From a virus: 28,497 nucleotides of DNA. The number at the start of each line of letters is the position of its first letter. Position 1 is the first letter of the stretch. This document shows, piece after piece, positions 712 to 22,888 of the stretch. The position numbers and the translations under genes are program-made. Where the stretch lies: the IMG/VR virus record IMGVR_UViG_3300030426_000008, positions 1 to 28,497 of that record, one strand, 5' to 3'. Below the pieces are notes generated by a model, which made no database searches, was not told where the DNA came from, and was given only the letters and a program-made list of their open reading frames with translations.

Positions 712-786
712 GCGGGCGTAGCTCAGGGGTAGAGCACAACCTTGCCAAGGTTGGGGTCGAGGGTTCGAATCCCTTCGCCCGCTCCA
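712..786 (+). tRNA. tRNA-Gly (anticodon GCC), CCA encoded
   Basis: A complete cloverleaf can be drawn. The acceptor stem GCGGGCG pairs with CGCCCGC, the D arm is GCTC/GAGC, the anticodon stem CAACC/GGTTG holds loop TTGCCAA with anticodon GCC, and the T arm contains GGTTCGAAT. The discriminator base is T783 and the CCA is encoded at 784-786. The 3' end points into the prophage, so the gene is the presumed integration target and remains intact after integration. The serine integrase gene enters it antisense and stops in the D arm at 725-723. Confidence 0.97.
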
Positions 787-800
787 TCGTTACCATACAT
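712..800. other. Presumed left attachment site (attL) in the tRNA-Gly gene
   Basis: The host/prophage boundary must lie here or just to the right: host genes are on one side, and the integrase gene overlaps the 3' part of an intact tRNA on the other. Elements that use tRNA genes usually carry a copy of the tRNA 3' end so that the gene is restored. The exact crossover cannot be seen without attR, which lies outside the window. Large serine integrases exchange at a 2-bp core within a roughly 40-50 bp site, so sequence identity between attL and attR may be short. Confidence 0.5.
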
Positions 801-2411
801 TGACATTCCCCCCGGCTGGGGCGCGTCCGTTCCGGTCGCCAGCGCCAGCATGGAGTTCAGCTTGCCGGTGACTTCAATCGTCACGCCCTTCGCCCGGTCC
901 GGCTTCGGGTGAACGTGGACGCTGTTGATCAGCGCGCGCAGCTTGGGGATCGCTTCAAGGCGGGCTTCGGGGTTCTCTGCCAGCGCGGCGTTCAGCTTGG
1001 CAACCTGGGCGCGATAATCCGCGATGATAGACGGGTGAAGCGCGACGACGGGAAGCTGTTCAAGCTGTTCCAGTTCCGACGCGAGCGCATCGCGTTCGGC
1101 GCGGGCCTTGCCCAGAACTTCCCGGATTTCGACGAATTCGTCCGCGCCGTCTGCGACGGCCATGACAAGGCGTTCGACCTTGGCAACCGCGTCCGCGTGC
1201 CGCTTCTTCAGCCGGTCGCTTTCCCGCGATAGTTCCTTCGCCCGGCGGGCGTGTTCCAGATGATATTCCCGGACATAGATTTCGACAAGTTCGGGGTCCA
1301 GCATGTGATCCTGCAAACCCTTCAGGACACGTTCTTCCATCGGCGCGGTGCGCGTGGTGCGATTGTTGCCGCACGCCGCCGGTCCGCCTTCACGATGACG
1401 GGAACAGCCCCAGCGTTCGCGCCCGATCACCGTCCACGCACCGCCACAGACGCCGCAACGCACGATCCCGGACAGCATGTGCTTGGGGCGGCGGGACCGT
1501 TCCGGGCGGCGGCTCTGCACCCTCCCCAGCACGTCCTGAACCGCTTCCCATAGGTCCGCGTCCACGATCCGCAATTCGGGCACGTCCTGGACCAGCCATT
1601 CGCTTTCCGGGTTCGCCCGGATCAGCGCCTTGCGGGTCTTCGGATCGACGATCTTGCGGGTCCGGTTGAAGATCAGCTTGCCGATATAGAGCTGGTTCTG
1701 AAGAATGCCGTTCTTGCGCTTGCGATCCCCGTAAATGGTGGACCCGCGCCAGAAACTGTTCCCGCCGGATCGCGGCTGGACGGCTGGCACGCCGTCAGCG
1801 TTCAACCTGTCGGCGATCTGGCGAGGGCTGAAGCCCGCTGCGAATTCGCGGAAGATGCGCCGCACGACGTCAGCCTGATCTTCGTCCACTTCGCGCAAGC
1901 CCCGGATCAGTTCCCCGTTGCCGTCCAGCCTGTTTGCCTTGCGATAGCCATAGGCGATCCCGGCGGCGAACCGCTTCTGGGATATGGTCCCGCGCTGTCC
2001 ACGCTTCACCTTGGCGGCAAGGTCTTTGCGAAACTGGGCGTCCATCAAGCCCCGGAAGGTGGCGGTGATTTCCGTCACTTCGCCGTCGGACAGGGTGAAC
2101 AGCCGGGCACCCGCGAAGGTGAGGCGTTCCCGAATGGCGAAGGCGTCGCCCTGGTGACGCGCGATCCGGTCGGTCGCTTCCGCCAGGACCTGATCGACGC
2201 CGCCCGCTTCGACGCGCGCCAGCAAGGCGTTCAGCCCCGGACGGGCGCTTTCGTCGATCCCCGCCGCGCCGCTGATCGCAAAGTCCGTGAAGACGTCCAG
2301 GACGTCCCAGCCTTCGCGCTCGCACCGTTCGCGGCAAAGTGCGACCTGATCTTCAATCGACCGGGCGTTCTGAAGGGTGGAACTGAAGCGGGCATAGATG
2401 ACGGTCTTCAT
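723..2411 (-). CDS. int: Large serine recombinase (phage integrase)
   Basis: 562 aa. The N-terminal resolvase-type catalytic domain starts with YARFSSTLQ, the nucleophile most likely Ser10, and spans about residues 1-150. A Recombinase domain follows (about 160-300; GYRKAN, QIADRLNADGVPA). Then comes a zinc-ribbon with Cys319, Cys322, Cys336 and Cys347, and a coiled-coil region (about 380-450). This is the classic large serine integrase layout and would catalyse attP x attB integration through double-strand breaks with a phosphoserine link. It is the last gene of the leftward operon, with a 4-base overlap (ATGA) to the gene before it. Oddity: residues about 543-562 (ending LGKVVLYP) are encoded by the antisense strand of the tRNA-Gly gene and the TGA stop lies in its D arm. 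The C-terminus may therefore differ between integrated and free phage. Confidence 0.95.
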   Translation of the reverse strand: MKTVIYARFSSTLQNARSIEDQVALCRERCEREGWDVLDVFTDFAISGAAGIDESARPGLNALLARVEAGGVDQVLAEATDRIARHQGDAFAIRERLTFAGARLFTLSDGEVTEITATFRGLMDAQFRKDLAAKVKRGQRGTISQKRFAAGIAYGYRKANRLDGNGELIRGLREVDEDQADVVRRIFREFAAGFSPRQIADRLNADGVPAVQPRSGGNSFWRGSTIYGDRKRKNGILQNQLYIGKLIFNRTRKIVDPKTRKALIRANPESEWLVQDVPELRIVDADLWEAVQDVLGRVQSRRPERSRRPKHMLSGIVRCGVCGGAWTVIGRERWGCSRHREGGPAACGNNRTTRTAPMEERVLKGLQDHMLDPELVEIYVREYHLEHARRAKELSRESDRLKKRHADAVAKVERLVMAVADGADEFVEIREVLGKARAERDALASELEQLEQLPVVALHPSIIADYRAQVAKLNAALAENPEARLEAIPKLRALINSVHVHPKPDRAKGVTIEVTGKLNSMLALATGTDAPQPGGMSMYGNDGAGEGIRTLDPNLGKVVLYP

Positions 2412-11775: not shown

Positions 11776-12305
11776 AGCGCGCGATCTTCCAGCAATCCCG
11801 AAGGGGCGGCAAGAACTGGGCGGCTGGCCTGTCTCGCGGCGACGCGCCGAAGAAGGCCAAGCGCGCGCCGCGTCCGCGCCCCGATCCGAAGCCGGTGGAT
11901 GACATTGCCGATCTGCCAGCCGGTCCCGAAGTTCTGGGGCGTGTGATCGTGCCGTTCCCCCCGGTCGAGTTGTCGCCAAACTGGCGCGGGCACTGGTCGA
12001 AGCGGTCGCCGATTGCGAAGACCTATCGCCGCCTATGCTGGGCGCTGGCGCTGGAAGCGAAGCTGAAGGTTCCCGCCTATGCGGCTGGCGGCGGCAAGAT
12101 CGCCGTGCGGCTGGACTTCTTCCCGCCGGATCGGACCAGCCGCGACGACGACAATGTTCCCGCCAGCTTCAAGGCCGGGCGGGACGGGATCGCCGACGCG
12201 CTGAAGTGCGACGACGCCCGCTTCCAGACGGTGAACGTCCTTCATGACGAACCGCGTTCGTGCGTCGTGGTGACGCTGATCACCCCGGAAGGCGAAGCCG
12301 CGTGA
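11769..12305 (+). CDS. rusA: RusA-type Holliday junction resolvase
   Basis: 178 aa. The C-terminal 120 residues follow RusA: LSPNWRGHWSKRSPIAKTYR, then VRLDFFPPDRTSRDDDNVPA, SFKAGRDGIADALKCDDARF. The acidic cluster RDDDN (126-129), Lys135 and the Asp148/149 pair correspond to the metal-binding catalytic residues of RusA. The first about 50 residues are a basic extension (KKAKRAPRPRP) absent from E. coli RusA and probably bind DNA. It would resolve recombination or replication intermediates before packaging. It overlaps the PcfJ-like gene by 7 bases and the next gene as GTGA. Confidence 0.9.
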   Translation: MVKRAIFQQSRRGGKNWAAGLSRGDAPKKAKRAPRPRPDPKPVDDIADLPAGPEVLGRVIVPFPPVELSPNWRGHWSKRSPIAKTYRRLCWALALEAKLKVPAYAAGGGKIAVRLDFFPPDRTSRDDDNVPASFKAGRDGIADALKCDDARFQTVNVLHDEPRSCVVVTLITPEGEAA

Positions 12306-12865: not shown

Positions 12866-13716
12866 CGAAACCTTCGCGCCCGGTGCTGCGCTGGCACGGC
12901 GGCAAATGGCTATTGGCACCGTGGATCATTGAACACTTCCCGCCTCACCGTGTCTATGTCGAACCGTTCGGCGGCGCGGGGTCCGTGCTGTTGCGCAAGC
13001 CGAAGGCCTATTGCGAGGTCTATAACGACTTGGACGGCGACGTCGTGAACCTGTTCCGGCTGTTGCGTCAATCAGACGCGGACCGGCTGGTCGAACTGAT
13101 CCGCCTGACGCCATTCGCGCGCGAAGAATTCGTCGCGGCCTACGAAGCGTGCGACGATCCCCTGGAAAGGGCGCGGCGCTTGGTCGCGCGCAGCTTTATG
13201 GGCTTCGGGTCCGGTGGAGCGACCGCGAACAGCACGGGCTTTCGTTCGAACAGCACGCGATCCGGCACGACGCCCGCCGAAGATTGGGGCAACTATCCTG
13301 AAGCCTTGGAAGCCGTGATCAGGCGCATGAAAGGCGTCATTGTCGAGAACCGCCCGGCGGTGGACGTAATGCGGCAACACGACGGGCCTGAAACGCTCCA
13401 CTACGTCGATCCGCCCTATCTTCCGGAAACCAGGTCGAAGTCCAGCGTCGGTTCGACGACGCCGAAAAACACCTATCGGCACGAACTGACGGTGGAAGAC
13501 CATATCGAGCTTCTGGACGCGCTGACGGGCCTTTCCGGCATGGTGATACTGTCTGGCTATCCCGCGCCGCTATACGATGATCGCTTGCGCGGCTGGCAGC
13601 GCATCGAGCGCGCGGCCTTGGCTGACGGTGCCCGTGCCCGGACGGAAGTTCTCTGGCTGAACCCCGCCGCCGCTGCAAAGTCAGATCAGCCCAGCCTGTT
13701 CGGGGAAGCGGCATGA
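12862..13716 (+). CDS. D12-class (Dam-like) DNA adenine methyltransferase
   Basis: 284 aa. Motif order fits the D12 class: RWHGGK near residue 10, SAM-binding EPFGGAGSVLL (34-44), NDLDGDVVNLF, and the catalytic DPPY (183-186), then VILSGYPAPLYDD. It would transfer methyl from SAM to N6 of adenine in a specific DNA site. No restriction gene accompanies it, so it is an orphan methylase, as common in phages, and probably shields phage DNA or marks the origin. The reading frame is open further upstream, but the ATG at 12862 overlaps the stop of the previous gene by 4 bases and begins the conserved part. Confidence 0.93.
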   Translation: MTKPSRPVLRWHGGKWLLAPWIIEHFPPHRVYVEPFGGAGSVLLRKPKAYCEVYNDLDGDVVNLFRLLRQSDADRLVELIRLTPFAREEFVAAYEACDDPLERARRLVARSFMGFGSGGATANSTGFRSNSTRSGTTPAEDWGNYPEALEAVIRRMKGVIVENRPAVDVMRQHDGPETLHYVDPPYLPETRSKSSVGSTTPKNTYRHELTVEDHIELLDALTGLSGMVILSGYPAPLYDDRLRGWQRIERAALADGARARTEVLWLNPAAAAKSDQPSLFGEAA

Positions 13717-14159
13717 AACTGGTCGCCGCCCCTATTTCGTTCAGGGACGCCGCCGCGTTCGTGAAGGTGCATCATCGCCACCATACGCCCCCCGTCGGTC
13801 ACAAGTTCAGCATTGCGGCATATGCGGACGGCGAACTTGTCGGCGTTGTGATCGTCGGACGTCCCGTCGCCCGCCGCCGTGACGATGGGTTCACCCTGGA
13901 AGTGACGCGGCTTTGCACGAATGGGCATCCGAACGCCTGTTCCTTCCTCTATGGCGCGTCGGCGCGTGCGGCCTTCGCTTTGGGTTATACCCGGATCGGG
14001 ACATATATCCTGAAGTCCGAACCCGGCACGTCACTTGCCGCCGCTGGCTGGAAGGTCATTGCCGAAACGCCTGGAAAGTCGTGGTCCGTTCCGTCGCGCC
14101 CGCGATCCGACAAGCATCCGCTGGAACCGAAGTTGCTGTTCGAAAGGACGGCGGCATGA
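13713..14159 (+). CDS. XF1762-family phage protein (GNAT-like)
   Basis: 148 aa. The sequence ISFRDAAAFVKVHHRHH, then PPVGHKFSIAAYADGELVGV and VIVGRPVARRRDDGFTLEV, is the pattern of the XF1762 family of phage proteins. The order of strands (HKFSIAAY, LVGVVIVG, TLEVTRL) with a later FLYGASARAAFALGY helix reads like the acetyltransferase (GNAT) fold; the chemistry of the family is unproven. It follows the methylase by a 4-base overlap and precedes the initiator by another, so it is co-expressed with both. A link to DNA modification is possible. Confidence 0.85.
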   Translation: MKLVAAPISFRDAAAFVKVHHRHHTPPVGHKFSIAAYADGELVGVVIVGRPVARRRDDGFTLEVTRLCTNGHPNACSFLYGASARAAFALGYTRIGTYILKSEPGTSLAAAGWKVIAETPGKSWSVPSRPRSDKHPLEPKLLFERTAA

Positions 14160-15271
14160 GCTGGGAAACCCAAAGCTGGGCGGCGAAGCAACGCCCCGGA
14201 TCAGCATCCGCGAAACTGGTCCTTCTGGGGCTGGCGTCGTGCGCCGATGCGAACCATTGCGCCTTCCCGTCGATCCAATGGCTTTGCGACTTCAGCGACC
14301 TGAACCGCAAGACCGTGATCGCAGCACTTCAGCGGCTGGAAGACGGCATGTTCCCGCTGATCGAAGACACGGGCGAGCGGCGCGGGCGGACGCTTCAGGT
14401 GAAGGTCTATCGGCTGGCGGCGGGGGTTGAAGGCGCGTCCGCCGATCCCGCTTCGCAAACAGTCCCAAAAGCGGAACAGTCCCAAAAGCGGAACAGTTCC
14501 GGTTCTTCCCGGAAACAGTCCCAAAATAGGGACACGGAACCTGTTTCTAACCTTCTACCCCCCTTAACAGCTAAAGCTGTTAAGACCCCCAGGGGTTCAC
14601 CTGCCCCCGATTTCAATGATGGATCGAAGGGGGAAGGACAGGCACCGGCTGGGCGTGCTGGCAGGCGTGGTTCGCGTGGAACCCGGCTTCCCGAAGACTG
14701 GGCACCGCCGCCAGCGGACCAGCTTCAGCCGATGGCGGGGAAACTGGTCCGGCAATGGCCGTCCGGTGCCTATGAGGCGGTTTGCGAGACGTTCCGCCTG
14801 CACTGGCAGACGGAGACGCGGGCTATCGGTTGCAAGCGCGACTGGGGCGCTGCGCTGGCGAAGTGGCTGATCAATGATCATTCGAAGATCATGCGGGACG
14901 CGAAGGCGGGCGTCAGCTTCGCGCACCTTGCCCCGGCGAAGCCGTCGGGATCGTCACCCGCGCGCCCGCCGCGCCCGGTTGCCGCCAAGGCGAACGAAGA
15001 CGAACGATCCAAGGCGATCAGGGAGCATCTTCGCCGCGCGCTGGGCGCGGTTATCTATGACCAGTGGATCGAACCTGTCGCCGTGATCTGGGACGCGCCC
15101 GGCGTCGTGGTGATCGCGTCCAGCGAATTTCAGCGATCATGGATCGAAGATCACTTCCAACCGAAGATCATGGCGGCGGCGCGCGCCGTCCTTGGGTCCG
15201 GCGTGCGCTGGACCCGCTTTCAAGTCGATCAGGCGCAATCAGGACAATCCGGCAGGGAAGGACGGGAATAG
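14156..15271 (+). CDS. Phage replication initiator with DnaA domain I-like C-terminus
   Basis: 371 aa. Residues 1-90 are a winged helix-turn-helix typical of phage initiators (ASAKLVLLGLASCADANH, then QWLCDFSDLNRKTVIAALQR). Residues about 95-175 are a polar linker. Residues 178-245 (LPEDWAPPPADQLQPMAGKL, then WGAALAKWLINDH) match the C-terminal helical block of replication proteins that contact the helicase loader. Residues 285-350 resemble the DnaA N-terminal domain (AIREHLRRALGAVIYDQWIE, then VVVIASSEFQRSWIEDHF), a partner-binding fold for DnaB or its helpers. The coding DNA of the linker holds a 17-bp iteron array and a long palindrome, as lambda O holds ori. The ATG at 14156 overlaps the previous stop by 4 bases. 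Confidence 0.88.
   Translation: MSWETQSWAAKQRPGSASAKLVLLGLASCADANHCAFPSIQWLCDFSDLNRKTVIAALQRLEDGMFPLIEDTGERRGRTLQVKVYRLAAGVEGASADPASQTVPKAEQSQKRNSSGSSRKQSQNRDTEPVSNLLPPLTAKAVKTPRGSPAPDFNDGSKGEGQAPAGRAGRRGSRGTRLPEDWAPPPADQLQPMAGKLVRQWPSGAYEAVCETFRLHWQTETRAIGCKRDWGAALAKWLINDHSKIMRDAKAGVSFAHLAPAKPSGSSPARPPRPVAAKANEDERSKAIREHLRRALGAVIYDQWIEPVAVIWDAPGVVVIASSEFQRSWIEDHFQPKIMAAARAVLGSGVRWTRFQVDQAQSGQSGREGRE
14458..14530. repeat. 17-bp iteron array inside the initiator gene (putative phage ori)
   Basis: AACAGTCCCAAAAGCGG occurs twice back to back (14458-14474 and 14475-14491). A third, degenerate copy begins at 14492 (AACAGTTCCGG), and a fourth at 14514-14530 reads AACAGTCCCAAAATAGG. The 17-base period is not a multiple of three, so the repetition is kept at DNA level and not for the protein. 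Adjacent AT-richer sequence and a palindrome follow. Confidence 0.75.
14563..14584. repeat. 22-bp palindrome beside the iterons
   Basis: Arms CTTAACAGCT and AGCTGTTAAG separated by AA form a 10-bp perfect stem. Each arm contains the AACAG core found in the iterons, so it may be a further initiator site in symmetric form or a strand-opening structure. Confidence 0.7.
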
Positions 15272-22630: not shown

Positions 22631-22888
22631 ATGAAGGCCGTCAAATTCCTCATGCCCTACACGCTGGGCGCACTCTACAACGAAGGCGAAGTCGCCGGGT
22701 TCGACGAAGCCATTTCGGACGATCTGATCAAGCGCAGCATTGCCGAAGCGGTGAAGCCCGCCAAGGGCAAGGCGGCGGACGAAGAGGCGGCGAAGAAAGC
22801 CGCTGAAGAAGCCGCTGCGAAGAAAGCCGCCGAAGACGAAGCCGCGAAGAAAGCGGCTGACGAAAAGGCCGACGCGAAGAAGGCCTGA
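22631..22888 (+). CDS. Small head-region protein with Lys/Ala/Glu-repeat tail (85 aa)
   Basis: 85 aa. The first 45 residues (VKFLMPYTLGALYNEGEVAG, then FDEAISDDLIKRSIAEAVKP) follow the pattern of small phage proteins that sit beside capsid genes; the rest is repeats of the type AAKKAAEE with almost only Ala, Lys, Glu and Asp. That tail should form a long charged helix. AGAAGGA precedes the ATG. A role in head assembly or decoration is inferred from the location between capsid and head-spike genes. Confidence 0.75.
   Translation: MKAVKFLMPYTLGALYNEGEVAGFDEAISDDLIKRSIAEAVKPAKGKAADEEAAKKAAEEAAAKKAAEDEAAKKAADEKADAKKA

Follow-up and report, generated by a model that had tools for sequence, protein, structure and literature searches.

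Where does replication of a prophage begin, and can its origin lie within the coding sequence of its own initiator? This question is raised by a gene in IMG/VR virus record IMGVR_UViG_3300030426_000008, of which we analyzed positions 1 to 28,497 (subsequently designated the window), a single contig from an incomplete assembly. The initial annotation had placed a phage origin inside the initiator gene. Position in the linker-coding DNA, conservation at the DNA level and iterons that change together with the helix type support this assignment, and judging from sequence comparisons we consider it likely that the replication origin of the prophage is located here, in the gene of the very protein whose winged helix would bind it and which would bring about opening and recruitment of DnaB.

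The element is an integrated prophage, as a large serine recombinase frame (723–2411, minus strand) ends over a tRNA-Gly gene (712–786) and genes for HK97-type portal and protease follow downstream of the initiator gene. As the recombinase frame ends inside the tRNA-Gly gene, the attachment site may reside in the 3' end of the latter. Just upstream of the initiator, positions 12868–14159 comprise a D12-class adenine methyltransferase gene (PF02086) followed directly by a Mom-like DNA modification gene, which matches phrog_1384 (E = 2e-35). A 27-bp tandem repeat of 3.4 copies at 22781–22871 encodes the Ala/Lys-rich tail of a small protein. GC skew, named with the initial annotation as a possible refutation, has no break at the initiator: at third positions of plus-strand genes it is −0.039 in the part upstream of the gene and −0.018 in the part downstream. 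The initiator gene and the elements within it are as follows.

14156 to 15271, plus strand: initiator gene, 371 aa (HTH_36, E = 2.6e-8; DnaA_N, E = 1.2e-10)
14201 to 14344, plus strand: Pfam HTH_36 match, residues 16–63 of a winged helix that spans residues 1–93 in the structure model
14432 to 14668, plus strand: linker, residues 93–171, disordered in the model (pLDDT about 33)
14458 to 14474, plus strand: iteron 1, AACAGTCCCAAAAGCGG
14475 to 14491, plus strand: iteron 2, exact tandem copy of iteron 1
14497 to 14514, no strand assigned: middle unit with the pyrimidine-centred dyad TTCCGG-N6-CCGGAA, read from the sequence
14506 to 14585, no strand assigned: 80-bp AT maximum of the gene (53.8% AT, top 0.45% of window 80-mers), candidate opening region
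14514 to 14530, plus strand: iteron copy with 2 mismatches, containing the start of the dyad GTCCC-N6-GGGAC (14518–14533)
14538 to 14552, plus strand: phased tract with two AACC copies at a distance of 11 bp (14538 and 14549), recognized by a census of 65 genes
14558 to 14563, plus strand: C run preceding the hairpin, with the final C shared as first base of the stem; conserved in relatives
14563 to 14584, no strand assigned: hairpin with variable stem, 9 bp stem and 4-nt loop, CTTAACAGC-TAAA-GCTGTTAAG
14586 to 14590, plus strand: C run after the hairpin, conserved in relatives
14681 to 14905, plus strand: helical middle domain, residues 176–250, from the structure model
15014 to 15184, plus strand: DnaA-domain-I-like domain, residues 287–343, by Pfam DnaA_N, sequence and fold comparison

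The protein matches PHROG 1032, 'replication initiation protein' (E = 8.5e-26), and its matches to PHROG 1032 and 3992 extend to residues 244–245, near the end of the helical middle domain. PF13730 (HTH_36) scores 34 bits against a curated cut-off of 25 and PF11638 (DnaA domain I) likewise lies above its cut-off; Pfam reports HTH_36 and DnaA_N only, the RepA_N domain (PF06970) being absent. Domain I is also detected by sequence comparison (E = 2e-4), DnaA_N is present at E ≤0.01 in 14/15 members, and the structure model, calculated with 15 aligned relatives as input, places a domain-I fold at residues 276–357. With residues 279–363 as query, a fold search matched DnaA domain I over 79 residues (4tps_B, Z 10.6) and ranked the helicase loader DciA as well (8a3v_C, Z 8.0), while the whole initiator model yielded no Foldseek match at E 0.001. 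Residue F325 is near-invariant among relatives and aligns with F46, the Phe of the helicase contact in E. coli DnaA domain I; Glu21 is not conserved in the initiator. In several relatives (L006, L017/L031, L042, L052/L056 and L057) an in-frame insert of ~90 residues with a YIG motif immediately precedes the iterons; in several loci it directly follows the winged helix. By eye we presume a resemblance to GIY-YIG nucleases, and Pfam gave no match for the inserts of L006 and L017.

Iterons, AACC tract and hairpin all fall within the coordinates of the disordered stretch, in agreement with the assignment of the repeats to the linker-coding part of the gene. The two tandem 17-bp iterons and the fourth copy of the initial annotation are indeed found, the former as exact copies and the latter with 2 mismatches to AACAGTCCCAAAAGCGG; the unit with the dyad at 14518–14533, which starts within this copy, is the most conserved among relatives. 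The proposed degenerate third copy at 14492, however, matches the unit at 8/17 bases only and is rather to be read as half-sites around the dyad at 14497–14514. By reading, the arrays of relatives also consist of dyads of the form GTTCCGaaaaCGGAAC, and the array in the window appears better described in these terms as well. No further copy of the unit with up to 3 mismatches occurs in the whole window (0.07 expected by chance). An exact test for recurring dyads with 4-nt arms detected one copy in the window (P 1.0), the iterons varying too much for such a test, and gave P <0.02 in 6/26 genes of the class census described below.

A period of 17 bp is out of step with codons, and the iteron copies are indeed read in different frames, so that the same DNA is translated differently from copy to copy. 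From this the earlier reading had deduced selection at the DNA level, which two counts corroborate. We shuffled synonymous codons within the gene 2000 times, keeping the protein and the codon counts, and measured repeats by 8-mers, a measure that is free of any core chosen by eye. The linker contains 29 repeated 8-mer pairs, whereas the shuffles have a mean of 1.26 and a maximum of 10, none of the 2000 reaching 29. The same test on lambda O, a proven embedded origin, gave 18 pairs vs 1.2 expected. Among control stretches from other genes of the window, 1/49 had significant repeats; this sole stretch, 12029–12288 in a RusA-like resolvase gene, contains 12 pairs vs 1.0 expected. For the second count we compared codons among 13 class A genes (defined below) including the window, found by protein similarity. 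In the stretch formed by the last iteron and the AACC behind it, codons were identical in 570/594 same-residue comparisons (96%), as compared to 562/1024 around the recognition helix and 626/1409 in residues 4–40 (44–55%). When the DNA pattern of the last iteron unit was used as query, it matched 50 viral-contig stretches, all in an open frame. The conserved motif is read in a common frame in 49/50 of these loci and in a different one in L054, and an HTH domain or its end precedes it in 47/50, the upstream stretches inspected for L052, L056 and L061 being without it.

If the winged helix binds the iterons, its recognition helix and the iteron sequence should correspond in relatives, a comparison that had been suggested along with the origin. 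We distinguished genes with an N/D-R-K-T helix (class A) from genes with an S/T-K-Q/K-T/A helix (class B). The layout of the gene is common to the two classes, and the DnaA_N end is present in many members of each. At least two CCRAAANNGG cores are present in 24/26 class A linkers (81 in all vs 12.6 expected), the exceptions being L087, without core or repeats, and L086, with a variant core; ACCGGT is found there twice in all vs 3.4 expected. Conversely, 17/17 class B linkers carry ACCGGT palindromes in the same place (51 in all vs 5.6 expected) and 0/17 the class A core. Both cores were chosen by eye on the same sequences in which they were then counted. Successive copies are mostly spaced by 17 bp in class B and in alphaproteobacterial class A genes and therefore run through the reading frames. 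Across 63 genes the sharing of repeated 6-mers tracks identity of the recognition helix and also general relatedness; among pairs with the rest of the domain <40% identical, motif sharing still correlated with helix identity (0/1000 permutations). The recognition helix as sole cause of the iteron type was rejected, as the rest of the domain correlates with motif sharing too. The comparison thus bears out the joint change of types but does not separate the helix from general relatedness. Because helix type and iteron type change together, we infer that the HTH_36 domain binds the in-gene iterons.

Between iterons and hairpin lies the helically phased AACC tract, which recurs at 10–12 bp also in genes with other iterons. 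In 65 genes we counted 63 AACC pairs 9–13 bp apart vs 19.2 expected and 57 pairs 10–12 bp apart vs 16 expected; at least one phased pair is present in 44/65 genes. The pairs are distributed over the frames as 39, 18 and 6. The pattern was first noticed on part of the 65 genes counted, and in the window alone it is not significant (P 0.67). The AT maximum at 14506–14585 is a modest enrichment.

The 22-bp palindrome reported earlier is present at 14563–14584, but the AACAG core that it shares with the iterons turned out to be coincidence: relatives keep the hairpin, its arms change, and most are without AACAG. Since pairing is kept while AACAG is mostly lost, the palindrome was excluded as a relative of the iterons. 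In a fixed-register alignment of seven loci, standard pairs occupy 62/63 cells (98.4%), both partners have changed in 20 cells, and 1/63 is a G-T cell, whereas slid registers are 24–43% paired. The hairpin is therefore a separate element, kept by compensatory changes. Folding of single-stranded DNA gave z-scores of −3.4 to −6.6 for the window, on both strands, and three relatives. A stem of at least 8 was found in 9/47 distinct pattern-found loci vs 0.5 expected, with some loci shared with the other hairpin counts. The offset of the hairpin from the last iteron is near-fixed in class A alphaproteobacterial loci, with another value in most class B loci, and because of this near-constancy within each group the hairpin is tied to the iteron array. 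As a universal part it was rejected: codon shuffles give stems as good as the best one in L080–L089 and in many of the loci found by pattern, and a comparable hairpin is mostly absent from the named phage records (L080–L089).

To what extent other HTH_36 genes share this layout was addressed with genes sampled by family and independently of repeats, using the loci of best-scoring matches. The class census comprised 26 genes (30 loci without the window and 3 with tails <60 nt) and the phylum census 25 (27 loci without 1 with a short tail and 1 without match to the profile). Among these best-scoring matches, the linker following the HTH_36 domain has self-repeats in 25/51 genes as compared to 1/49 control stretches, with P <0.02 in 11/26 genes of the class and 14/25 of the phylum sample. 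The repeats vary between genes and are often dyads, such as GGTGAACCCAGTTCACC in L129 and TGACCAATTCGTCA in L128. The class A form is found in phages phiV10, PPompW_EH2246, Vibrio H8, Edwardsiella GF-2 and EPP-1, Acinetobacter Ab105-2phideltaCI404ad, Bcep176 and EBPR podovirus 1; in Acinetobacter MD-2021a it occurs as a variant, and Acinetobacter BS46 shows none. The class B domain had no match in the phage records. Left out were loci whose gene was already represented by another one (L008, L019, L010, L011, L013, L016 and L025), L024 (a stop cuts the gene), L027 (N terminus not found) and L110 (outside the gene set). The near or exact copies L094, L097 and L100 were omitted from the AACC census and the 6-mer-sharing test only, L087 from the latter only, and L167 entered the AACC census but not the 6-mer-sharing test. 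An origin within the initiator gene seemingly is far commoner than the few known viruses and plasmids suggest.

Regarding the helicase, genes for DnaB and for IstB/DnaC-type loaders were found in 0/9 relative phage records, which may be fragments, with controls being detected. A lambda P gene was likewise found in 0/9 of these possibly fragmentary records and in none of the host assembly, the lambda control being detected. Small plasmids give a different view of the module. The replication genes annotated on a circular 8461-bp E. coli plasmid are just two, encoding a class A initiator and replication protein P, and a 15643-bp circular E. coli plasmid offers a similar picture, its gene table being incomplete; both recall lambda-dv plasmids. 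Together with a further record they make up L108, L109 and L110 (small Klebsiella and E. coli plasmid records of 8.6, 8.5 and 15.6 kb), the 8.6-kb record being marked linear. All three have the appearance of defective prophages that persist as plasmids by means of an HTH_36 initiator together with replication protein P. Circular replicons of this kind, and the precedent of pPR9 (PMC5703833), lend further support to the embedded origin.

We propose the following course of events. The N-terminal winged helix would bind the dyad iterons at 14458–14533, and the DNA would be bent and strained by the bound copies. Opening would follow in the adjacent AT-richer stretch that contains the AACC tract. 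The DnaA-domain-I-like C-terminal domain would then recruit the DnaB helicase of the host, and therefore no phage helicase loader would be needed. For the hairpin, a role on the opened strand is probable, either as a boundary or as a structure for priming or loading. The long disordered linker would let the coding DNA double as binding sites with the protein unharmed.

Alternatively, the array could be an operator, at which the HTH_36 protein binds inside its own gene and blocks transcription while replication starts elsewhere. Winged-helix proteins often autoregulate, and the position of the sites downstream of the start would suit a roadblock. No promoter-like site was found near the in-gene array, in keeping with a roadblock more than with an operator at a promoter. 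We nevertheless regard such autoregulation as improbable: several phased sites, an AT-richer stretch and a hairpin exceed the needs of a roadblock, the window is devoid of copies at ≤3 mismatches elsewhere, this module provides the only annotated replication functions of the circular plasmid, and in pPR9 domain and origin moved together (PMC5703833). Selection could also act on the protein, the linker being a low-complexity peptide grown by slippage or its SQKRDTEP peptide being selected. The common frame of the last unit in 49/50 loci would suit this, as would the in-frame periods of 18 or 24 in several phage linkers. It is very improbable all the same, given the frozen codons of the last iteron, copies that occur in all three frames and with a 17-bp period, repeats that codon shuffles do not reproduce and the predicted disorder of the linker.

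The origin reading leaves two of its parts with explanations of their own. The hairpin might have no part in the origin and be an RNA signal instead, such as a pause, attenuator or antitermination site in the early operon, since a stem with compensatory changes and a 4-nt loop is equally possible in RNA. The low share of G-T cells, the lack of a terminator call at the hairpin, the absence of Rfam families between 14100 and 15300 up to E 0.1 and the near-fixed offset that ties the hairpin to the array make this rather unlikely, although it keeps some weight. The domain-I-like C terminus might bind host DnaA or a DnaA regulator instead of DnaB, initiation then proceeding via host DnaA; DnaA domain I self-associates and binds several regulators. 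No DnaA box with ≤1 mismatch is found near the gene, however, and the fold search also ranks the loader DciA, so that this route, too, seems unlikely, if still worth consideration.

Extending the origin reading to HTH_36 initiators at large, we tentatively suggest, at somewhat less than an even chance, that they share one origin grammar written in linker codons: dyad iterons specific for the class, phased and strand-specific AACC independent of class and, in many alphaproteobacterial phages, a hairpin kept as structure. Each initiator gene would therefore print its own binding site beside its recognition helix. If so, a natural recognition code for winged helices could be worked out by matching initiators with their sites across many genes, and the AACC tract would be an undescribed signal for opening or helicase entry. 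Origins of many uncharacterised phages and small plasmids would become readable from sequence, in genes often annotated merely as helix-turn-helix or primosomal protein. The union of a winged helix with DnaA domain I would moreover offer, in compact natural form, a test of what is minimally required for placing a replicative helicase at a new site.

Origins within initiator genes are established for lambda (PMC6022878, PMC7466680), pSK41 (PMC5703833) and repABC plasmids (PMC3155836), according to these accounts. As annotated and described for lambda O and ori-lambda, iterons with hyphenated symmetry lie mid initiator gene (PMC6022878, PMC7466680). The parallel drawn by the initial annotation holds in that the array lies within the initiator gene, here in its linker-coding part; the repeats are unrelated. 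Unlike lambda O, the present initiator has no accompanying lambda P gene in the records searched and ends in DnaA domain I, and its gene contains an AACC tract and a covarying hairpin next to an AT maximum that is only modest. An hhalign comparison with lambda O gave a probability of 0.1, while some PHROG models named 'O-like' match the initiator. The pSK41 initiator, as presented in PMC5703833, is similar in having a winged helix and Rep boxes central in the rep gene, and the linker encoded by these boxes is dispensable there; it differs in its RepA_N instead of HTH_36 domain and its DnaD-like, primase-binding C terminus instead of DnaA domain I. A precedent for an HTH_36 (pfam13730) domain and its origin as a working module is pPR9, in which, according to the same source, the two together, a single block of ~500 bp, took the place of the RepA_N part and supported a mini-replicon; pPR9 is, however, a Staphylococcus plasmid with a different C terminus. 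HTH_36 proteins are also described beside cI in EHEC phage replication units Eru5, 6, 8, 11 and 13, whose replication proteins that source states to be so far not known, the cited passages mentioning no origin (PMC8951638). Residues 279–363 share the fold of DnaA domain I and DciA, but in contrast to DnaA there is neither an AAA+ nor a DnaA DNA-binding domain, and domain I is fused to a winged helix. In the open-licence literature, with few subscription papers, we found no account that presents iterons within the gene as a feature common to phage initiators with HTH_36, nor one of DnaA domain I in such an initiator. Taken together, the embedded origin is a variant of a known layout, and the fusion to DnaA domain I, the hairpin and the breadth of occurrence are its less expected parts.
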